Part shown: positions 3,009-55,803 of the stretch, one piece after another | How the letters are laid out: each line of letters begins with the position of its first letter | Position numbering within the stretch: position 1 is the stretch's first letter | Assembly (NCBI GenBank): GCA_026391675.1 | Contig: JAPLDQ010000021.1 | Coordinates: 1 to 64,000, forward strand | Direction: 5' to 3' | Source of the DNA: Bacteroidota bacterium | GTDB taxonomy: Bacteria; Bacteroidota; Bacteroidia; Bacteroidales; JACABE01 | Length of the DNA: 64,000 nucleotides | Position numbers and translations under genes: made by a program | The notes under the pieces: generated by a model | Database searches by the model: none | Seen by the model: only the letters and a program-made list of their open reading frames with translations | Told to the model about the DNA's origin: nothing

Positions 3009-4061
3009 TTAATTGTTTTCTTTCAGATAGTCTTTGATCATTTTCATCAGGAGTTTATTTTGCTCCTGTGTTCCGATAGTAATACGTAAATGTTTGAATA
3101 AACCATCTTCTGCCATGAATTTAACAATCATGTTGCGTTCGGTTAAATATTTCTTTAAGCCGTCTTTGATTTGTTCAGGAATTTCAACTAAAATAAAGTT
3201 GGAATAAGATTTGAATGCTTTGAAACCCGGCATAGCATTGAATTCATTAAAGAACATATCCATGTCAGCTGTCATTTTTTCTCTCATTTCGCTGTAATAA
3301 TCTGCAGAATCAAGGGCAGCTAGTCCGATAAGTTCAGTAAGCCTGTTATAACCCAAATAACGGGCAGAGAACATGTTAAAATCAGCATGATTATCTCCCA
3401 TTAAAGCAAAACCTATTCTGATACCGGCCAGACCATAATATTTAGAAAAAGTTCTGATAATAATGAGGTTGGGGTATTTCTCAACTAGTTTTTTCAAATG
3501 CGAATTGTCCTTATTATAGAAAAGGGTATAAGCTTCGTCCAGGATTACTACTGTATCTTTCATTTCTTCCAGAACATACATCAACTGTTCGATTTCCAGA
3601 CGGTTTCCTGTAGGGTTGTTGGGTGAACTTATCAAAACTAATTTTGGTTTTTCTTCTCGATAAACCTTTATCATTCCTTCAATGTCGTAATAAAAACTGT
3701 CCTTGCCTTCAACAATGGGATACTCAATTTTTATCCCGCCTTTTTCGTCGGATATTTTTTTATAATACCACCAGGAGTAAGCAGGAATCATGATTTTATC
3801 CCCTTTATGAATATAACAATGAACAGCTTGTTTAAGAATATCTTCTCCACCGTAACCTACCATTACATTTTTTTCGGCTATACCAAAGTCTTTGGCTAAT
3901 CTTTCTGATAAACGGCTTTTTACACCTCTTGCAAAATCGCGTGAATATTCGTAAAGTTCAACGCTGTCGATGTTTCTTAAAACATCAAAACATTTTGGTG
4001 CAGGACCGTATTGGTTTTCGTTTCTGTCTAAATAAATAATTGCTTTGTTATCTGTGCTCAT
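3009..4061 (-). CDS. Histidinol-phosphate aminotransferase-like PLP enzyme
   Basis: This fold-type I PLP enzyme has 350 residues when started at the ATG at 4061. It shows the N-terminal 'LDRNENQYGP', 'SSPNNPTGN' (about 145-153), 'DEAY' (D175 for the pyridine nitrogen), 'FSKYYGLAGIRIG' with the Schiff-base lysine near K207, and a conserved Arg near 215. An in-frame TTG at 4109 is a worse start because a promoter-like TACTTTTG overlaps it. The HisC likeness is clear. However, no other his genes are present and the partner is a CDP-alcohol phosphotransferase. A CobD-like phosphoamino-acid decarboxylase or lipid-head-group role is therefore as plausible as histidine synthesis. Confidence 0.8.
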   Translation of the reverse strand: MSTDNKAIIYLDRNENQYGPAPKCFDVLRNIDSVELYEYSRDFARGVKSRLSERLAKDFGIAEKNVMVGYGGEDILKQAVHCYIHKGDKIMIPAYSWWYYKKISDEKGGIKIEYPIVEGKDSFYYDIEGMIKVYREEKPKLVLISSPNNPTGNRLEIEQLMYVLEEMKDTVVILDEAYTLFYNKDNSHLKKLVEKYPNLIIIRTFSKYYGLAGIRIGFALMGDNHADFNMFSARYLGYNRLTELIGLAALDSADYYSEMREKMTADMDMFFNEFNAMPGFKAFKSYSNFILVEIPEQIKDGLKKYLTERNMIVKFMAEDGLFKHLRITIGTQEQNKLLMKMIKDYLKENN

Positions 4062-4106
4062 CTTATATATTACTATTGATTCTTTTTGGTTTTTATTTTG
4101 AGTTTG

Positions 4107-4114
4107 CAAAAGTA
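4107..4114 (-). promoter_or_regulatory. Probable -7 element for the aminotransferase operon
   Basis: Read on the minus strand the site is TACTTTTG, a match to TAnnTTTG. It lies 46 bp before the ATG at 4061, so the predicted leader is about 39 nt. It separates this two-gene unit from the M48 gene upstream and argues against the TTG start at 4109. Confidence 0.45.
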
Positions 4115-4137
4115 TAAAAATTATAATATTTTTATTA

Positions 4138-4935
4138 TCACTTTTTATAATAAGTCATTGCTTCGGGCAAATTCTTTTTCATTTCAGCAATTCTGTTGGC
4201 ATCATTAGGGTGAGTGCTGAGCAGTTCAGGAACTGCAGCGCTGCCATTCTGGCTCATTCTTTCCCAGAAATTAACTGCTTTATTGGGGTCGTAACCGGCC
4301 ATAGCCATAAAGAATAAACCCAGTTTATCAGCTTCGTATTCATGTTCGCGGGAGAAAGCCAGTGTTCCAAGGGTGGAACCTACACCAAAAACAGTATTGA
4401 AAAGGCTTTTGGTAGCTTCAGGTTTGTTTGCCAGGGCTGATTCCAACGTCATTCCGCCCAACTGCAGTATTAATTGCTGGCTCATTTGTTCGCTGCCATG
4501 TTTGGCAATGGCATGGGCTATTTCATGACCCATAACTACAGCTAATCCATCAGCATCAACGGCAACAGGCAATAAACCCGTATATACCACAACCTTGCCA
4601 CCGGGCATACACCATGCATTTACCTCATTACTTTTTACGAGGTTGAATTCCCATTGGTATTTGCTGACATCAGCACCCATACCTTTTGCATTCATAAAGC
4701 TGGTAACTGCAGCAGCCAGTTTCTGACCCACTTCCTTTACCATTTTTACATTATTATCAGTAGCCGGCAGCGGAGGGTTCTGGGTTAAAAAATCATTATA
4801 ATTGGTAAGACTCATGCTGAGCATGGTTTCATCCGGAACGATGTTGATACGTTTACGGTTTGAGAATGGTACTACTGAACAAGCTGCAAGTGTCAGCAGT
4901 AAAAAAAATGTAAAGAATTTTCTTGTTGTTTGCAT
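4138..4935 (-). CDS. M48-family zinc metalloprotease lipoprotein
   Basis: The 265-residue protein has a lipoprotein signal (LTLAAC, lipidated Cys at 19) and the zinc motif HEIAH at 137-141. The third-ligand glutamate lies in the segment 'SREHEYEADKLGL' around residue 200. This is the layout of BepA/YcaL/LoiP-like periplasmic M48 proteases, which act in outer-membrane protein quality control. There is no TPR region as in BepA, so it is the short type. The gene begins 2 bp after the clpS stop codon, so both are in one transcript, although one acts in the periplasm and the other in the cytoplasm. Confidence 0.92.
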   Translation of the reverse strand: MQTTRKFFTFFLLLTLAACSVVPFSNRKRINIVPDETMLSMSLTNYNDFLTQNPPLPATDNNVKMVKEVGQKLAAAVTSFMNAKGMGADVSKYQWEFNLVKSNEVNAWCMPGGKVVVYTGLLPVAVDADGLAVVMGHEIAHAIAKHGSEQMSQQLILQLGGMTLESALANKPEATKSLFNTVFGVGSTLGTLAFSREHEYEADKLGLFFMAMAGYDPNKAVNFWERMSQNGSAAVPELLSTHPNDANRIAEMKKNLPEAMTYYKK

Positions 4936-48018: not shown

Positions 48019-48999
48019 TTATCTTGTAATAACAGGAGCATGCATATCTATTCCTGAAAATTTGGAGTATTCATTAATCATAAAGAATATTCCCATAATC
48101 AGTTCAACCCTTATTGGTTTATTGTTTTCGGTGGCTGGTCTCCAGCGGGGCATTATTTTTAAAGCTTTTTCTATTTCTTCATGATATCCCCATTCATCTA
48201 TAAAATAATTATTGTTAGATGTAACAGTACCATCTTTTTCAACAATAAAACTGAAATACCAACTGCCTCCGTAGGGATTTTTATTATGTCTGGCTTTAAG
48301 AGGTATTTTAATATTGTTCTCCATAAATTTAATTCTGGCAACATCTCCTCCCGGAAATTCAGGAAGGCTTATTTTTCTACTGGTATCACTTTGTTTTGCA
48401 AATAAAGTTTCTTTATCATCTTCAAAAGCATAAAACCAATCTAATCTTATTGGTTTTGAAACGGTATCAATTTCAAGTTTTTTAAGGCAGAATTTGTTTA
48501 ATTCTCCAAAATACCAACCGTCTTTATTTGAAAAGATCCAGCAGGAATAAGGAAGATCGTTTATTTCCTTATTTATATAAAATCTTACAAATAAATCTTT
48601 AAAATAAAAATCATAAATTATGCTGTTGTCGGGATAATTGATTTTTTTATTACTTAATGATAGCTTGCCGGCATCATTCTTTAATTCATTAAATAACATT
48701 GAATCATTAAATTTATAATAAAGAATAGCGTTGTTACAATTAAAGTCACGATAAACAAAAAGAGAATTATAAACAGATGAAGAGGAACTATCATTATATT
48801 CCCAAAGATAATCCAAGGCTGTATTGATTTGCCATTTTTTTTCTTTTAAAAATTTGGAAACATTATTTTTAGTCTCTTTTTGAAGTTTTATCAATTCATC
48901 AAAACTGAGATTTTGTGAAAAACAATTATTGGTAATAAATAATAAAAATAAGCCGAAATAAATAATTTTCGGCTTAAAAATTTGGTGAAATATGCGCAT
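48019..48999 (-). CDS. Secreted protein with TonB C-terminal domain (paralogue 2)
   Basis: The 326-residue protein starts with a signal peptide ending 'TNNCFSQ'. The opening 'LSFDELIKLQKETKNNVSKF' is shared with paralogue 1, so the two arose by tandem duplication. The TonB C-terminal part includes 'LPEFPGGDVARIKFMENNIK', 'WYFSFIVEKDGTVTSNNNYF' and 'MPRWRPATENNKPIRVELIM'. About 20-25 residues, 'NEYSKFSGIDMHAPVITR', extend beyond the usual domain end. It is co-directional with paralogue 1 and 6 bp after the rubrerythrin-like gene. Confidence 0.72.
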   Translation of the reverse strand: MRIFHQIFKPKIIYFGLFLLFITNNCFSQNLSFDELIKLQKETKNNVSKFLKEKKWQINTALDYLWEYNDSSSSSVYNSLFVYRDFNCNNAILYYKFNDSMLFNELKNDAGKLSLSNKKINYPDNSIIYDFYFKDLFVRFYINKEINDLPYSCWIFSNKDGWYFGELNKFCLKKLEIDTVSKPIRLDWFYAFEDDKETLFAKQSDTSRKISLPEFPGGDVARIKFMENNIKIPLKARHNKNPYGGSWYFSFIVEKDGTVTSNNNYFIDEWGYHEEIEKALKIMPRWRPATENNKPIRVELIMGIFFMINEYSKFSGIDMHAPVITR

Positions 49000-49005
49000 A
49001 AAATT

Positions 49006-49461
49006 TTAATTTTCCCTTAATATATGCTCATCATATTCAATTTCGAAGCTGAGCTTGTGCTTGGATTCTTCTGCGGCAAGGGCAAGGAAAATATTTTTCA
49101 GATTATCATTTGGGGCTCTTTCGGCCAGTTTGGTGTATAATTTATAAGCTGCTTTCTCCTTTTTCATGGCATAAACCAGGGCTTCAGCATAAGTCATAGT
49201 AGGAGAGGGGCTTACATTCAGCGTATAGTCACTGATTTTTAAATCAGTCACCGATTCTGCTTTCATATCAAATAACCCATTTTCCTTAATTTCCATCAAT
49301 CTTTTTTTATGATTGATTTCTTCCCTGGCAAAATCGGTAAATACTGTTTTTACATCAGATGATGATGCATTTTCTGCTAATTTGGTATATAAGTCAACAG
49401 CAGCCTGCTCTTCGTTAATAGCGAAATCTAAAATGTCGTTAATATTTTCAAATTCTTTCAT
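49006..49461 (-). CDS. Rubrerythrin/ferritin-like diiron protein
   Basis: The 151-residue protein is made of two similar halves. In the first, 'DFAINEEQAAVDLYTKLAEN' is followed by 'FAREEINHKKRLMEI'; in the second, 'YAMKKEKAAYKLYTKLAERA' is followed by 'LAAEESKHKLSFEIEYDEH'. The E-x-x-H pairs are those of a diiron four-helix bundle. The C-terminal rubredoxin domain of true rubrerythrin is absent. These proteins scavenge peroxide or handle iron. The gene lies between the TonB-domain pair and the flavin/Fe-S complex genes and may form an anaerobe oxidative-stress function. Confidence 0.85.
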   Translation of the reverse strand: MKEFENINDILDFAINEEQAAVDLYTKLAENASSSDVKTVFTDFAREEINHKKRLMEIKENGLFDMKAESVTDLKISDYTLNVSPSPTMTYAEALVYAMKKEKAAYKLYTKLAERAPNDNLKNIFLALAAEESKHKLSFEIEYDEHILREN

Positions 49462-49604: not shown

Positions 49605-52600
49605 TTAAAATTTATCTTCAAAATAATCATCAAAGTATTTTACTACATTATCGCAGGCATGATAGAATAAAGCCTGATAATTATTATCTTCAGTTTCAAT
49701 GAAACGGAATTTTCCTCTTTCTTCGGTTTCAAATTCCGGTAATAATGATATGGCTTCCATCATTACATCATTAACATCGGTTGTTGTTTTAACACCTAAT
49801 TTCTTAAGCAAAGCAAACAATTGCATATATGAATCTTCTGCTAACGGAGAAACTAAATTTTGATTCACCTTCTGAATGTGGCGTTGTGTATTGGTGAAAT
49901 GTCCGCCAATTTCGAATGGTAATGATGCCGGTAAAACAAGGTCAGCCAATTGGGCAGTTTCAGTCATGAAATAATCCTGAACAACGCCAAATCCACCTTT
50001 TGATGCCACTTCACGTATGTTTTCCTTATCAATTGCGCAACCAATTGGATCCTCACCAAAAATGAACACATTCTTTATCTTACCTTCACGTAATAATCTT
50101 TCCTGATCGCTGGTATAAGTTGTAGATAATTTACTTACTCCCCATATTTTTTCCATTTTCTTGATAAATGCCTTGTTATCCACTTCCTGATATCCAACAC
50201 CAAACTTAGGATAAGCGCCCATGTCAAATAATCCCTGAGAATTATTCTTGGTTTTTAATGCAATTAAACCATTGGATGTTTTTCCCAGTTTACCGGTAAT
50301 CATTGTTAAATTATATAATTCTGTGGACGCAGGTGCTGAGATTTCCTTTTCTGAAAACAACAGTATGGCATTCATTTGTTCATTATAATCATTGGCACAA
50401 CTGGCAATCTGTTCAGCAGTAATACCGGATAATTTAACTAAACCATCAAAATTTTCTTTTAATAATTTATCTTTATATGTTTCAAAATCAGAACAATTAT
50501 CTTTAATAAATAAAGCATTATACAATTTGTTTTTTACAAGGTAATGATTTACAGCTTTGATAAAATAATAGTAAGAATCAACTTTTATTACTTTGTCAAC
50601 TTTGTGTGCCATGGAATTATTTTCCAGTGTAGTAAGCACTTCAACTTCTATTTTCTTGGTAAAACGTGTATTACTAACCATATAGCCAACCACAGGATTG
50701 TCGTTGTTGATTTCTGAACCAAACAAATATATTTTACTTGCGCCTGCAATCTGACTAAATGGTGCATTATCAAAAGAAGTATTGATAAGATGAGCACCTC
50801 TCTTCATATAATGCATACTGGCAACATTGTTTGTTTTTGCACCGGCTCTGGCTAATTTCTGTATCAGATACATTTCTTCGTTGGTTAAACGGGCACCGGC
50901 AAAGAAAGCATTTTCGTCAGCATCTACACTTCTAATTTTATGTAAGATATAATCGTAAGCTTGATTAAAACTGATTTCTTCAAATTTTCCATCAGTTTTT
51001 AAGAGTGGTCTGGTAATCCGTTTTTTATCATTCAGATACTGGTAACCGAATTTGGCATATTTACAGATATTTCCGTCAGTATTTACTTCTCTATTGGCTC
51101 CGGTAACTTTCATTACAAATCCATTTTTATGATGAACTGTAATACTGCAACCGACAGAACAATAATTGCAAATGGTTTCAAAAGTATCGGCTTTTACAGG
51201 ACCTGGTTTAAAGTAAACATTTTCTGTAATGGCACCGGTTGGGCAGGTAGATATACACATTCCGCAGCTTTCGCAGCTTGTATCCTGCAGATTGTTTCCT
51301 AAACTTGGAGCAACATAGGTTTTAAATCCGCGTTCAACAAGACCAAGCGCATTTGCACCCACCACTTCCTTACAAATACGGACACATCTTGAACACAAAA
51401 TACATTTGTTATTGTCAATTTCAATAAAAGGATGCATGAAATTTACCTGATGTTCGTTGAATTCACCTTCAAAGTGTTTCTGTTCAGCATTATATTCTGT
51501 GGAATATTTCTTTAAATCACAGCTGAAATATTCTGTACAGCCACATTCAAGGCAACGGTTGACTTCATGTTTAGCAATTTCTTCGTTTTTATAGCCTAAT
51601 TCAACTTCGTTAAAGTTAATACGGTTTTTAGGATTGAGTGTAGGCATTTCTTCGCGCAATTGTTTTGGAAAACTATTTACATAATCTTCTTTTAATTGTG
51701 TTTTAAAATTTTCCTTTTTGCTTAAAAACTCTTTTTTAGCAGGTTCTACAGGCAATCCCATCATATACTGATGACACGACAATGCGGCAACTTTTGCCTG
51801 AGCTATGGCCTGAATTAGCGTAGCAGGACCAGTAACACCATCACCGGCTGCAAATATCGATTTTACGCCAGTTTGTAAGGTAGCACTGTTACAATCCAGG
51901 TCGCCCCATTTGTTTATTTTAACTTCACCTTTATCAACGTAGCTGTTTATATCTTCTAAAAATCCGGCTTCAGTTTTCTGCCCAATTGCAGCCAATACAT
52001 AATCTAATTTAAGTTCAAATTCAGAACCATCAACAGGAACAGGTCTTCTTCTTCCTGAAGCATCAGGTTCACCCAATTCCATTTTAATGCAAGTCATGGT
52101 TTTTAACTTGCCTTTTTTATCTTTTGTTATTTTGGTAGGATTACAAAGGAATAAATATTCAACACCTTCCAGTTTGGATTCATGAATTTCGATAGGATTG
52201 GCTGGCATTTCGTTTTCTGTACGACGGTAAACCACATACACTTTATTAGCACCACAGCGTATAGATGTTCTGCAACAATCCATGGCTGTATTTCCTCCAC
52301 CAACAACAGCAACAGTTTTACCGGCAAAATTATATTTTTGTCCGGTAATTTCCATTTTTTTCAAAAAATCAATGCCTGAGAATACATTTTCAGCATCATC
52401 ACCTTCGCAACCAACTGTTGTTCCTTTTTGAGAACCAATGGTTAGTATTGTAGCATCATATTTTTCTTTCAGCGTTTTGTAGCTGAGATTGCCTCCTAAA
52501 TTTTTGTTATAAAAAATATTTACGCCCAATTCAGTAATATTATCCACTTCGCTTTGCAATAAATCATTGGGTAAACGGTATTCAGGAATGCCATACCTTA

Positions 52601-53303
52601 ACCATCCACCTGCCTTAGGTGCAGCTTCATAAATATCAACCTGATGACCTTCAATCTGCAGAAAATAAGCAGCAGATAAACCACCGGGACCGGCGCCAAT
52701 GACAGCCACTTTTTTCTTTGTACTTTTCTTAATTTCAGGAATAAATTTGGTTGTAGATTCCAGATCTATATCAGATGCAAAACGCTTTAAATAATCAATA
52801 CCTACACCTGTGCCTTCATCGAGTAAATTTCTGCGACAAGCCACTTCACAGGGGCGTACACAAACTCTTCCGCAAATAGCAGGCAAAGGATTAACTTCTT
52901 TAATTAATGCAACAGCATCATTATATAAGCCTTTTTCTATCAATGAAATATAACCCTGTACATCAACACCGGCAGGACAAGTTTGCTTGCATGGACCGGC
53001 ACAATCAGCATAGTGATTGCTTAACAACAAATCCAGTGCTGTTTTGCGGGCTTTATACACTTTATCATTGTCGGTAGTAATTACCATTCCTTCCCTGACT
53101 CTTGTAGAACAGGAAGGTTGTAAGCCCTTTAAGCCTTCTACTTCCACAACACAAACATAACATGATGTGTAGGGCTCAATACGCGGATCATTGCAGAGCG
53201 TAGGAATATGGATCTTATTTCTGTTTGCTACATCTAAAATAGATTCGTTGGGATCTGCCTTGATAATGTTGCCGTTTAAAACGATATTTATGCTATTACT
53301 CAT
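49605..53303 (-). CDS. Large NuoG/GltD/molybdopterin-fold subunit, StnC-like
   Basis: The 1232-residue protein has these parts. Residues 1-85 form a [2Fe-2S] domain with C37, C48, C51, C65. At 100-160 is a Cys-rich Fer4_20 region. At 195-515 is a GltD/NfnB-like domain (FAD GAGPGG 203-208, NAD(P) GGGNTA 335-340). Two [4Fe-4S] motifs lie at C634-C644 and C677-C687. From 710 is a molybdopterin-oxidoreductase fold with C712, C715, C719, C747 and FDH-like 'NNSQGLFDMG'. The Cys/Sec active-site motif is missing at 824-836 (TNNVASMHYMKRG), so formate oxidation is unlikely. With the next two genes it forms a set matching the Stn-type bifurcating transhydrogenase. Confidence 0.8.
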   Translation of the reverse strand: MSNSINIVLNGNIIKADPNESILDVANRNKIHIPTLCNDPRIEPYTSCYVCVVEVEGLKGLQPSCSTRVREGMVITTDNDKVYKARKTALDLLLSNHYADCAGPCKQTCPAGVDVQGYISLIEKGLYNDAVALIKEVNPLPAICGRVCVRPCEVACRRNLLDEGTGVGIDYLKRFASDIDLESTTKFIPEIKKSTKKKVAVIGAGPGGLSAAYFLQIEGHQVDIYEAAPKAGGWLRYGIPEYRLPNDLLQSEVDNITELGVNIFYNKNLGGNLSYKTLKEKYDATILTIGSQKGTTVGCEGDDAENVFSGIDFLKKMEITGQKYNFAGKTVAVVGGGNTAMDCCRTSIRCGANKVYVVYRRTENEMPANPIEIHESKLEGVEYLFLCNPTKITKDKKGKLKTMTCIKMELGEPDASGRRRPVPVDGSEFELKLDYVLAAIGQKTEAGFLEDINSYVDKGEVKINKWGDLDCNSATLQTGVKSIFAAGDGVTGPATLIQAIAQAKVAALSCHQYMMGLPVEPAKKEFLSKKENFKTQLKEDYVNSFPKQLREEMPTLNPKNRINFNEVELGYKNEEIAKHEVNRCLECGCTEYFSCDLKKYSTEYNAEQKHFEGEFNEHQVNFMHPFIEIDNNKCILCSRCVRICKEVVGANALGLVERGFKTYVAPSLGNNLQDTSCESCGMCISTCPTGAITENVYFKPGPVKADTFETICNYCSVGCSITVHHKNGFVMKVTGANREVNTDGNICKYAKFGYQYLNDKKRITRPLLKTDGKFEEISFNQAYDYILHKIRSVDADENAFFAGARLTNEEMYLIQKLARAGAKTNNVASMHYMKRGAHLINTSFDNAPFSQIAGASKIYLFGSEINNDNPVVGYMVSNTRFTKKIEVEVLTTLENNSMAHKVDKVIKVDSYYYFIKAVNHYLVKNKLYNALFIKDNCSDFETYKDKLLKENFDGLVKLSGITAEQIASCANDYNEQMNAILLFSEKEISAPASTELYNLTMITGKLGKTSNGLIALKTKNNSQGLFDMGAYPKFGVGYQEVDNKAFIKKMEKIWGVSKLSTTYTSDQERLLREGKIKNVFIFGEDPIGCAIDKENIREVASKGGFGVVQDYFMTETAQLADLVLPASLPFEIGGHFTNTQRHIQKVNQNLVSPLAEDSYMQLFALLKKLGVKTTTDVNDVMMEAISLLPEFETEERGKFRFIETEDNNYQALFYHACDNVVKYFDDYFEDKF

Positions 53304-53396: not shown

Positions 53397-55175
53397 TTAC
53401 TGTAAAGAGATGGCGTCAAATTTACATCTTGCATAGCAATCACCACATTTAATGCACATTTCCTGATGAATAAAATGTACTTTTTTCTTTTCTCCGGTAA
53501 TGGCTTTAACAGGACATTTTACTGCACAAATCGTACATCCGGTACATTTATCTTCAATAATTTCGTAAGTTAATAATGCTTTACATGCTTTTGCAGGACA
53601 TTTTTTAGCAAAAATATGGGCTTCATACTCATCGCGGAAATATTTAAGTGTTGTTAGTACAGGATTAGGTGCTGTCTGTCCCAGACCGCATAATGAATTA
53701 TCTTTAATCTGTACTGCCAGTTCTTCCAGTTTTGCAATATCACTTTCTTCACCTTTACCTTCGGTTATTCTGTTTAAAATTTCAAGCATACGCTTTGTTC
53801 CAATCCGGCAGAAGGTACATTTACCACAGGATTCTTCCTGGGTAAAATTCAGGAAGAATTTAGCGATGTCAACCATACAGGTTGTTTCATCCATAACTAC
53901 CATACCACCTGAGCCCATAATGGCACCGGTTGCATTTACTGAATCATAATCAACAATAGTATCAGCAAGGAATTCAGGGATACAACCACCTGAAGGGCCA
54001 CCCAACTGAACAGCCTTGAACTTTTTCCCATTGGGAATGCCACCGCCGAGTTTAAAAATAATATCACGAATTGTAATTCCCATCGGTACTTCAACTAAAC
54101 CTGAATGATTGATTTTTCCGGCCAGTGCAAATACTTTGGTGCCTTTGCTTTTTTCTGTACCATATTTGGAATAAGCTGCAGCACCATTATAAATTATCCA
54201 TGGAATATTGGCAAAGGTTTCAACATTGTTGATGTTGGTTGGCTTGCGCCATAAACCTGATTCAGCAGGAAAGGGTGGACGCTTGCGGGGCATACCTCTT
54301 TCTCCTTCCACTGAAGCAATTAATGCTGTTTCTTCACCACAAACAAAAGCACCTGCACCTTCCTTAATATGAATGTCGAAATTAAAATCTTTAATTCCTA
54401 AAATGTTTTTTCCAAGATAAGCTTTTTCTCTTGCCTGATCAATGGCTATATTCAAACGTTTAATAGCCAGCGGATATTCAGCCCGGCAATAGATAACACC
54501 ATCAGTTGCACCTATGGCATAAGCACCGATTATCATGCCTTCCAATACTGCATGAGGGTCACCTTCCAGTAATGAGCGGTCCATAAATGCACCGGGGTCA
54601 CCTTCATCGGCATTACAAATGATGAATTTCTCATCTGATTTGTTATTCCGGGCAAATCTCCATTTCATTCCGGTAGAAAAACCACCGCCACCACGACCCC
54701 TTAATCCTGAATCGAGTATGCATTGTATAACATCCTCATAACTGATTTTTTCTTTAGCAATTTTTCTGATAGACGCATAACCCAGTTGTGATTCATAATC
54801 TTCAATGGATTCAGGGTCTATCATACCACAATGGCGTAAAGCAATCTTTACCTGATCATCAAAGAATTTATTATCAACGGTATCAAACAAAGCGGTTTTT
54901 ACAACATATTCCTTAACAGGCTCCTGTTTAACAACATGTTTTTCTATTATTTCCAGGGCCCGTTTCTCATCCACATTCCCATAAATGTAAGAACCTGTTG
55001 CATCAATGATTTCTACCAATGGCTCACGAAAACACATACCGATACAACTGGTTTTCCCTAATTCAAAATCCAGTTTATCAGCTGTTTTCAGTGCTTCCAG
55101 TTTTTGATAGGTTTTAAAGGCACCGGCAGCTATTCCGCAACTGCCCAATCCTACTATAACTTTAGTTTTTTCCAT
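53397..55175 (-). CDS. HydB/NuoF-like flavoprotein subunit, StnB-like
   Basis: Started at the ATG at 55175, the protein has 592 residues. A GTG at 55193 lies inside a GCCACTAAGG repeat and is less likely. The N-terminal thioredoxin-like region has C13, C44, C48. The FMN/NADH site is 'GLRGRGGGGFSTGMKWRF' (157) with 'CNADEGDPGAFMDRSLLEGD'. C450, C453, C456, C496 hold a [4Fe-4S] cluster, and 'CPAKAC' (526-531) matches the HydB metal site. Two ferredoxin motifs end it (C544-C554, C574-C584). This is the HydB/StnB architecture, the site of flavin-based bifurcation in HydBC-type modules. Confidence 0.9.
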   Translation of the reverse strand: MEKTKVIVGLGSCGIAAGAFKTYQKLEALKTADKLDFELGKTSCIGMCFREPLVEIIDATGSYIYGNVDEKRALEIIEKHVVKQEPVKEYVVKTALFDTVDNKFFDDQVKIALRHCGMIDPESIEDYESQLGYASIRKIAKEKISYEDVIQCILDSGLRGRGGGGFSTGMKWRFARNNKSDEKFIICNADEGDPGAFMDRSLLEGDPHAVLEGMIIGAYAIGATDGVIYCRAEYPLAIKRLNIAIDQAREKAYLGKNILGIKDFNFDIHIKEGAGAFVCGEETALIASVEGERGMPRKRPPFPAESGLWRKPTNINNVETFANIPWIIYNGAAAYSKYGTEKSKGTKVFALAGKINHSGLVEVPMGITIRDIIFKLGGGIPNGKKFKAVQLGGPSGGCIPEFLADTIVDYDSVNATGAIMGSGGMVVMDETTCMVDIAKFFLNFTQEESCGKCTFCRIGTKRMLEILNRITEGKGEESDIAKLEELAVQIKDNSLCGLGQTAPNPVLTTLKYFRDEYEAHIFAKKCPAKACKALLTYEIIEDKCTGCTICAVKCPVKAITGEKKKVHFIHQEMCIKCGDCYARCKFDAISLQ

Positions 55176-55187
55176 AATTTCTATATT

Positions 55188-55282
55188 TGCCACTAAGGCA
55201 CTAAGACACTAAGTTTTATACTATTTCAATTTTTTTTAAACACCAAGTACTTTAAGTTTTCCAGGTACTCAAGGCACTTTTT
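55188..55282. repeat. GCCACTAAGG and AAGTACTTTAAG repeats at a subunit-gene junction
   Basis: TTTGCCACTAAGGCACTAAG (55187-55206) and then AGTACTTTAAGTTTTCCAGG and CTCAAGGCAC (about 55244-55277) occupy the gap between the NuoE-like and HydB-like genes. They use the same words as the arrays at 281-342 and 49535-49603. Confidence 0.65.
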
Positions 55283-55284
55283 TA

Positions 55285-55803
55285 TTAATTGCTTTCTTTT
55301 ATCCTGATATTTTTAATGATATTAACTGCCTCTTTACCGGTAAGCTTAGCAAAAGTGTCATCACCTATCATCATGGCAGGAGCAAGTGAACAGCATCCCA
55401 GGCAAGCCACTGATTCCAAAGTAAACAGACGATCCTTTGTGGTTTCTCCATCCAAAACTTCCAGTGATTCCTGTATGGCTTCAGTGATGAGATTGGCATT
55501 TTGAACATGGCAGGCTGTTCCGTGACAAACTTTAATGATATGTTTACCAACCGGTTTTAAACGGAATTGAGCATAAAATGTAGCTACACCGTACATATCG
55601 CTTAATTTCAGGCCGGTTACTTCCGAAATTTTAATAAAGGCATCAGTCGGAATATAACCAAATGTATGTTGGCATCCTTGTAAAATAGGTATTAAATTAC
55701 CTTTTTTACCTTTATACTTAGCTAACAACGGGTCAATTAAGCTCAGATCAACCTTGTCATTGTCCTGATATTCCTGATTTTTTTTAATTCTTTCTATACG
55801 CAT
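55285..55803 (-). CDS. NuoE/HydC-like [2Fe-2S] subunit, StnA-like
   Basis: The 172-residue thioredoxin-like protein has the NuoE cysteines C93, C98, C134 and C138 in 'HIIKVCHGTACHVQNANLI' and 'ESVACLGCCSLAPAMMIGDD'. The N-terminal helical region is 'LIPILQGCQHTFGYIPTDAF'. In complex I it pairs with NuoF and holds the N1a cluster; in HydABC and Stn complexes the equivalent subunit completes the bifurcating flavin module. It is the first gene of the set, and the HydB-like gene follows at a distance of about 110 bp. Confidence 0.92.
   Translation of the reverse strand: MRIERIKKNQEYQDNDKVDLSLIDPLLAKYKGKKGNLIPILQGCQHTFGYIPTDAFIKISEVTGLKLSDMYGVATFYAQFRLKPVGKHIIKVCHGTACHVQNANLITEAIQESLEVLDGETTKDRLFTLESVACLGCCSLAPAMMIGDDTFAKLTGKEAVNIIKNIRIKESN

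Follow-up and report, generated by a model that had tools for sequence, protein, structure and literature searches.

StnC of a Bacteroidota Stn-type transhydrogenase has a probably inactive formate dehydrogenase-like domain and, in many relatives, a ferritin-like gene beside it

The stn locus and its predicted enzyme

The gene at positions 49605-53303 (minus strand) of the window, by which we mean the whole analysed stretch of 64,000 nucleotides of Bacteroidota DNA, encodes the StnC subunit of a Stn-type (Nfn-Bfu) NADH/ferredoxin:NADP+ transhydrogenase, an activity predicted from its sequence. Very probably, the formate dehydrogenase (FDH)-like domain of this StnC has lost its cofactor and the capacity to oxidize formate and would now serve as a structural or assembly domain. 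In addition, stnC is accompanied in the window and in many relatives by a gene for a ferritin-like protein; this conserved neighbour and its fusion to the dead domain in one genome look new, and it is on them, and not on the missing catalytic Cys, that the novelty of the system rests. The genes and domains of the locus are the following.

55285..55803, minus strand: stnA (bfuC), 172 aa, thioredoxin-like 2Fe-2S protein
53397..55193, minus strand: stnB (bfuB), 598 aa, with FMN domain, SLBB, NADH 4Fe-4S and a C-terminal 4Fe-4S dicluster
49605..53303, minus strand: stnC (Nfn-bfuA), 1232 aa, with 2Fe-2S, GltD-like FAD/NADPH, 4Fe-4S dicluster and dead FDH-like domain
53067..53297, minus strand: 2Fe-2S domain of stnC, PF13510 (Pfam), residues 3-79
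51795..53003, minus strand: GltD/NfnB-like region of stnC, PF14691 and PF07992 (Pfam), residues 101-503
51225..51431, minus strand: 4Fe-4S dicluster of stnC, PF22117, residues 625-693, with two CxxCxxCxxxC motifs
49608..51182, minus strand: dead FDH-like domain of stnC, residues 708-1232, with cluster Cys C712, C715, C719 and C747 retained and catalytic residues and domain IV gone

Both stnA and stnB lie upstream of stnC on the same strand, and their products have the defining domains of the bifurcating BfuBC core. Under a Pfam-to-InterPro mapping that we assume to hold, the domains of the published Bfu subunits are all present, with PF01512, PF10531, PF10589 and PF00037 in BfuB, PF01257 in BfuC, and PF13510 and PF22117 in BfuA. 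According to that definition, as given in the accessible part of the source, BfuB combines FMN, SLBB, NADH_4Fe-4S and 4Fe-4S domains, BfuC is of the NuoE type and BfuA contributes 2Fe-2S and 4Fe-4S domains (PMC9304861). The GltD/NfnB-like NADPH domain that marks Nfn-Bfu enzymes is found within BfuA (PF14691 and PF07992, residues 101-503), and the protein is StnC-like over its full length, its best PDB relatives by sequence being 9bov_A (E 1.4e-230) and the Sporomusa ovata StnC 8oh5_C (E 6.6e-225). The pair of dicluster motifs, read as a position-bound pattern, is kept in 100 of 101 StnC relatives, the exception (L134) having a longer predicted N-terminus. By analogy with S. ovata, electrons would be exchanged among the NADPH site of the GltD-like FAD domain, the StnC Fe-S clusters and the bifurcating core formed by StnAB. 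The presence of Nfn-Bfu enzymes in Bacteroidetes has already been noted in the available text of PMC9304861.

StnC is found in 5/5 genomes of the window's family at E values up to 1e-100, and matches occur in 111 of 295 genomes of its order, of which 101 were counted as StnC; the ten left uncounted are standalone FDH-like domains (G560, G444, G691, G600, G511, G584, G473), hits confined to the GltD part (G676, G591) and a piece at a contig end (G576). The order of G184 contributes a StnC match in 11 of 44 genomes, and a sample of the phylum in 87 of 395, most of these being shorter proteins of about 650 aa from one family that lack the FDH part.

Other loci of the same genome and the surroundings of stn in relatives yielded several side observations. 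On contig C22 of the window's own genome, a second StnC-like protein of 509 aa (L005:1462-2991, plus strand) is encoded beside a BfuB gene and contains 2Fe-2S, Fer4_20 and a first Rossmann motif; no match to PF07992 and no FDH-like domain was detected in it. On contig C7, a Cys-type FDH gene adjoins a BfuB-like gene whose product carries a 4Fe-4S dicluster at its C-terminus (L002:976-3654 and 3706-4848, minus strand), and the pair is a candidate for a bifurcating formate dehydrogenase. A histidine-kinase-type gene follows stnC at 7 of the 8 stn loci of f18/f47 (L048-L055) and a sigma-54 response-regulator gene at 5 of the 8. The fetched stretches of ten stn loci include a glutamate dehydrogenase gene (L097, L119, L127, L128, L129, L138, L141, L142, L147, L152), a family that also adjoins the ferritin-like gene elsewhere. 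In-frame stops were reported in the stnC frames of L123 and L124, one in G504 and three in G616.

Loss of the catalytic site in the FDH-like domain

The original prediction held that the TNNV motif of the FDH-like domain (residues 824-827) is followed by a loop without Cys or Sec while other FDH features such as NNSQGLFDMG persist, and both statements are borne out: the segment TNNVASMHYMKRG contains 0 Cys, and NNSQGLFDMG is present at residues 1020-1029.

50796..50834, minus strand: residues 824-836 of StnC, TNNVASMHYMKRG, with Lys834 and Arg835 where FDHs have Sec/Cys and His
50217..50246, minus strand: NNSQGLFDMG motif, residues 1020-1029, with Lys1017 ahead of it at the Arg333 position

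The FDH consensus that had been quoted for comparison, D-H-C-A-R-x-C/U-H, fits Escherichia coli FdhF and both FDHs encoded in the same genome, its second and fourth letters being variable. Alignment with FdhF (TNNVDCCARVUHG) places Sec140 at Lys834 (codon 50802-50804), His141 at Arg835, Lys44 at Tyr749 and Arg333 at Lys1017; U140, H141, K44 and R333 are the residues that we take to be the catalytic ones. Both FDHs of the genome keep the ligand Cys, in the segments NNIDHCARLCHA and NNVDYCTRLCHA.

This loss extends well beyond the window. Among 102 StnC (the window protein and 101 relatives picked for full length), the ligand column holds G in 41, N in 27, E and F in 8 each, D in 6, K in 5, Q, S and L in 2 each and A in 1, and neither C nor U is aligned there in any of the 102 or in any of 7 standalone FDH-like-domain proteins; within the order sample, this column was read for all but 18 of the 101 genomes with StnC, most of the 18 being truncated matches. 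A Cys elsewhere that fills the ligand position, named beforehand as the result that would count against the prediction, is likewise absent from all 102 aligned StnC, with L109 and L055 having a Cys close to the column and yet outside it. The missing Cys is therefore neither a chance event nor a frame error, and the inactive FDH domain is widened to 102/102 StnC, including distant ones of about 40% overall identity. The His141 column is Arg in 77 of 102. Arg333 survives in 13 of the proteins, with Lys in the other 89, and Lys44 survives in 11, with Tyr or Phe in 76, so the loss of the catalytic site has not been uniform. A StnC relative with an intact active site was sought among the 102, and the count was 0.

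StnC falls outside the FDHs by model score, active site and domain content. The FDH alpha model TIGR01591 gives it 301.8 bits, below the cut-off of 666.25 and against 872.3 and 777.1 for the two FDHs of the genome; the site formed by Cys/Sec, His, Lys and Arg is missing; and domain IV (PF01568, molybdopterin-dinucleotide-binding) is absent by Pfam from the window StnC and present in both FDHs. By sequence, the window's dead domain is closer to active FDHs than to S. ovata StnC (203 vs 147 bits), with about 26% identity to an active FDH and 16.7% to E. coli NuoG. The parallel with NuoG that had been drawn in the original prediction is fair in kind, the region being called NuoG-like in the available text on the S. 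ovata enzyme, and less so in degree, the E. coli protein being longer C-terminally and more distant than an active FDH. An AlphaFold2 model of the domain built from four sequences reached a mean pLDDT of 34.5.

Iron-sulfur cluster, selection and the role of the dead domain

The FDH-type cluster has its full set of four Cys in 89 of 102 StnC. One has lost a single Cys (L080) and 12 have lost all four (L110, L118, L119, L122, L124, L126, L131, L136, L137, L146, L149, L150); the FDH-type cluster is therefore dispensable in nature, and these 13 proteins offer natural tests of its purpose. A use of the cluster as a wire to the ferritin-like protein described below was considered and is not supported, the ferritin-like gene accompanying 10 of 13 StnC without an intact cluster and 57 of 70 with one (Fisher p 0.71).

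Despite its dead catalysis, the FDH-like domain is held by purifying selection like the rest of StnC: dN/dS of the FDH-like part against three relatives is 0.064, 0.070 and 0.044, with 0.053-0.061 for residues 1-620, figures that are rough because dS is saturated at 1.5-2.2. Catalytic and cluster Cys can be lost, yet the window's domain is under purifying selection, which argues for a scaffold and not for an enzyme. The proposal that the domain is a former oxidoreductase now used as a scaffold thus gains support, with the four compared catalytic residues replaced, domain IV gone and the FDH model failed.

The same reading is already known for the family, because it has been published for S. 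ovata. In the accessible text on that enzyme, the FdhF-like domain of StnC (residues 683-1172) is termed catalytically inactive and is needed for tetramer formation, and a functional complex or tetramer is no longer obtained when the domain is deleted or the Cys of cluster C1 or C2 are changed (PMC10482914). These two branch clusters are described there as lying off the electron path, and in the part available the authors state that their exact role is not clearly understood (PMC10482914). Formate oxidation by the S. ovata enzyme was looked for and none was detected, as reported in the accessible part of PMC7483475. By analogy with this system, the one from which the tetramer role comes, the dead domain most likely serves assembly in the window's enzyme too. 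Catalytic Mo/W-bispterin binding and formate oxidation would have been lost, the cofactor being presumably absent, and the domain would be kept for structure or assembly, with a 4Fe-4S cluster of its own in most members that is dispensable in some.

A pure role in Stn assembly leaves unexplained seven proteins of 521-553 aa (L153-L159) that contain the dead FDH domain and nothing else; no other StnC match was obtained in the genomes that encode them. Beside them stand an alanine dehydrogenase/PNT-type gene in L155 and L156 (with PNTB too in L155) and a CinA-type gene in L153. In a tree of 28 rows without outgroup, the standalone domains nest inside the main StnC group, so more than one change is needed to account for them; the tree is compatible with one loss of activity and with two, in f18 and in the main group.

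A ferritin-like gene linked to stnC

The presumed operon ends with a further gene on the same strand.

49006..49461, minus strand: ferritin-like protein of the rubrerythrin Pfam family, 151 aa, with ligands E18, E48xxH51, E102 and E132xxH135; last gene of the presumed operon
48949..48976, minus strand: terminator-like hairpin with T tail, just past the ferritin-like gene

None of the terminator-like sites listed lies between stnC and this gene; the region has five such sites in total, a number equal to that in shuffled sequences. The product is a ferritin-like di-iron four-helix bundle of the rubrerythrin family by its Pfam match (PF02915, 62.3 bits against a cut-off of 22.8), its model (pLDDT 83.4, four long helices) and its ligands, the six positions E18, E48, H51, E102, E132 and H135 being each kept in 95 or 96 of 96 proteins, the G004 fusion described below included. 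Its best fold match is TM1526, an uncharacterised ferritin-like di-iron carboxylate protein (TM-score 0.82). It scores 21.9 bits with the rubrerythrin equivalog NF045767, against a cut-off of 200, and no Pfam family match to a rubredoxin domain was obtained. Position 105, which we take to correspond to Glu97, the extra Glu of rubrerythrin, is Ala in 93 of 96. Since rubredoxin domain and extra Glu are both missing, ferroxidase activity or iron storage is just as probable as peroxidase activity. The protein most likely has a role in iron or peroxide handling.

Linkage to stnC recurs across the relatives. Within 1.5 kb past stnC, and on its strand, the gene is found in all 11 rows of f42 (the order of G184) and in 40 of 80 rows of the order sample, where 16 of the 40 without it had less than 1.6 kb of readable downstream DNA. 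It is also downstream in 4 of 5 rows of f1, from which the window itself is excluded, that is, after stnC in 3 of 4 genomes and, in the fourth, G004, after the fusion gene. Near stnC in f18/f47 it was found at 0 of 8 loci within the 2.0-3.5 kb read downstream. Among the 295 genomes of the order, the ferritin-like gene is present in 78 of 101 with StnC vs 10 of 194 without (Fisher p 9e-39, a value that ignores relatedness), and in 49 of those 78 it lies directly downstream of stnC. These counts draw on 94 genomes with a ferritin-like match at an E value of 1e-15 or better, less six whose match was weaker than 4.3e-36, and the count of 78 is if anything low because the excluded match of G534 sits just downstream of its stnC. 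Where the gene is found away from stnC, the immediate neighbours at 39 loci include NfnAB-type genes (8), glutamate dehydrogenase genes (8), flavodiiron-type (metallo-beta-lactamase-flavodoxin) genes (3) and BatA-domain genes (5), other neighbours being unrelated to redox; 39 of 40 loci were counted, L195 being left out as its ferritin-like gene was missed by the script.

In G004, a genome of the same family, a frame of 757 aa joins three parts: a ferritin-like domain (residues 9-140), a 4Fe-4S dicluster, and a dead FDH domain whose loop, TSMHYIKRGAH, is of the same kind as in the window. The fusion gene lies between a gene for a 151-aa ferritin-like protein and an NfnB-like gene, and the stnABC genes of G004 are on the same contig; a rubredoxin domain was not detected in the fusion protein. 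In the 28-row tree without outgroup, the dead domain of the fusion pairs with the StnC of the window's genus as its sister (100/100), not with the StnC of G004 itself. No second fusion was found in 393 genomes of the order (G004 being 1/393) or in 149 genomes of another class (0/149). The name of NCBIfam NF009413 joins a ferritin domain with NfnAB-like parts in a different fusion. A literature search, with most subscription papers and supplements outside its scope, returned no description of a Stn-linked ferritin-like gene.

Alternative readings of the dead domain

Some Mo-bispterin enzymes of the wider superfamily have a Ser or Asp ligand, or none, and on this precedent the domain could bind Mo or W through a non-Cys ligand and work as an oxidoreductase of another kind. 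The ten different residues at the ligand column of the 102 StnC, the lack of domain IV and the replacement of Lys44 and Arg333 in the window make this very improbable. Retention of a binding pocket for a nucleotide, a pterin or another small molecule, which would give the domain a sensory or regulatory role in the complex, is improbable too, if better founded, as near-invariant pocket-type residues persist despite the lost catalytic ones: N1021, G1024, G1029, GEDP 1083-1086 and D1110, with N1021 and G1029 in 94/94 of the main StnC group and GEDP kept there at 98% for G and 100% for E, D and P. The replacements themselves are conserved: within the main group, 99% of the proteins have Y832 and 82% have R835, and counted over all 102 StnC, 77 have an R835-type and 89 a K1017-type residue. 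Such residues may, however, merely hold the fold, domain IV is missing, and the available text on the S. ovata structure mentions no ligand of the FdhF domain (PMC10482914). That the domain is a functionless, decaying relic would agree with the vanished catalytic residues and with the FDH-type cluster lost in 13 of 102, and it is the reading that we find hardest to credit: purifying selection matches that on the catalytic part, the S. ovata complex needs the domain according to the accessible text (PMC10482914), and the domain is full length in 102/102 StnC, though these were chosen for full length.

A more substantial rival, which we regard as tentative and somewhat doubtful, has the ferritin-like di-iron protein dock on the dead domain with its Fe-S branch and reduce H2O2 or O2 with Stn electrons drawn from NAD(P)H or ferredoxin; in this reading the dead domain may dock or wire a peroxide-reducing partner. 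It would account for the ferritin-like gene placed directly downstream of stnC on the same strand in the window and many relatives, for the co-occurrence (78/101 vs 10/194, 49 adjacent), for the natural fusion in G004 and for the di-iron ligands, none of whose six positions is kept in fewer than 95 of 96, and the NfnAB-type, glutamate dehydrogenase, flavodiiron-type and BatA-domain genes next to the gene elsewhere may be counted on its side. Precedents are found in Rub-Bfu, which is predicted (accessible text of PMC9304861), and in a hydrogenase-rubrerythrin chimera that reduces H2O2 (accessible text of PMC11926857). Against it, loss of the FDH-type cluster is unlinked to the partner (10/13 vs 57/70, p 0.71), the gene is nearby at 0/8 loci of f18/f47 and absent from 23 of the 101 genomes of the order that have StnC, just one fusion was found (1/393 and 0/149), and the ferritin-like protein has neither rubredoxin domain nor extra Glu, its nearest fold match TM1526 being uncharacterised. 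Taken at its widest, Stn would in many Bacteroidota be a four-gene system whose dead domain and Fe-S branch dock a di-iron peroxide or oxygen reductase, one lineage having merged both in one polypeptide without the NADPH domain, a view that we put forward with the same reserve. If docking is true, Stn gains a side exit into oxidative defence, and if the four-gene reading is, the NADPH, NADH and ferredoxin pools are tied to that defence. The natural cluster loss in 12 of 102 plus one and the ferritin-like neighbour as a candidate partner give two handles on the role of C1 and C2.

Comparison with known systems

The closest known system is StnABC of S. ovata (PDB 8OH5, 8OH9), which, in the accessible description, shares the subunit set, the domain order of StnC, a ligand-loop segment without Cys and an inactive FdhF-like domain; Bacteroidota relatives often have a ferritin-like gene after stnC, whereas none is mentioned for S. 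ovata in the part of the literature available. The closest solved sequence is 9BOV/9BP5, named 'Molybdopterin oxidoreductase' in the PDB, which has the same architecture over residues 9-1030 and a ligand segment that likewise lacks Cys. NuoG of complex I also carries a dead molybdopterin-fold domain on an Fe-S subunit, and the E. coli protein keeps the FDH-type cluster Cys, but it differs from StnC in having no GltD domain, a longer C-terminal part and only 16.7% identity to the window's domain.

On the side of the ferritin-like protein, Rub-Bfu (Type 4 Bfu) combines a BfuBC core with an adjacent rubrerythrin-type gene and is predicted to reduce peroxide, according to the accessible text of PMC9304861. 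It has no BfuA, and its rubrerythrin gene follows bfuB directly, whereas in the window stnC stands between stnB and the ferritin-like gene, an order outside the Rub-Bfu type. HydR of Clostridium perfringens, an [FeFe]-hydrogenase-rubrerythrin chimera, resembles the G004 fusion in joining a di-iron domain to an Fe-S redox module, and its reduction of H2O2 has been demonstrated, as the accessible part of PMC11926857 reports. The G004 protein, in which no rubredoxin domain was detected, is built around a dead FDH domain, whereas HydR combines an active hydrogenase with rubredoxin centres.
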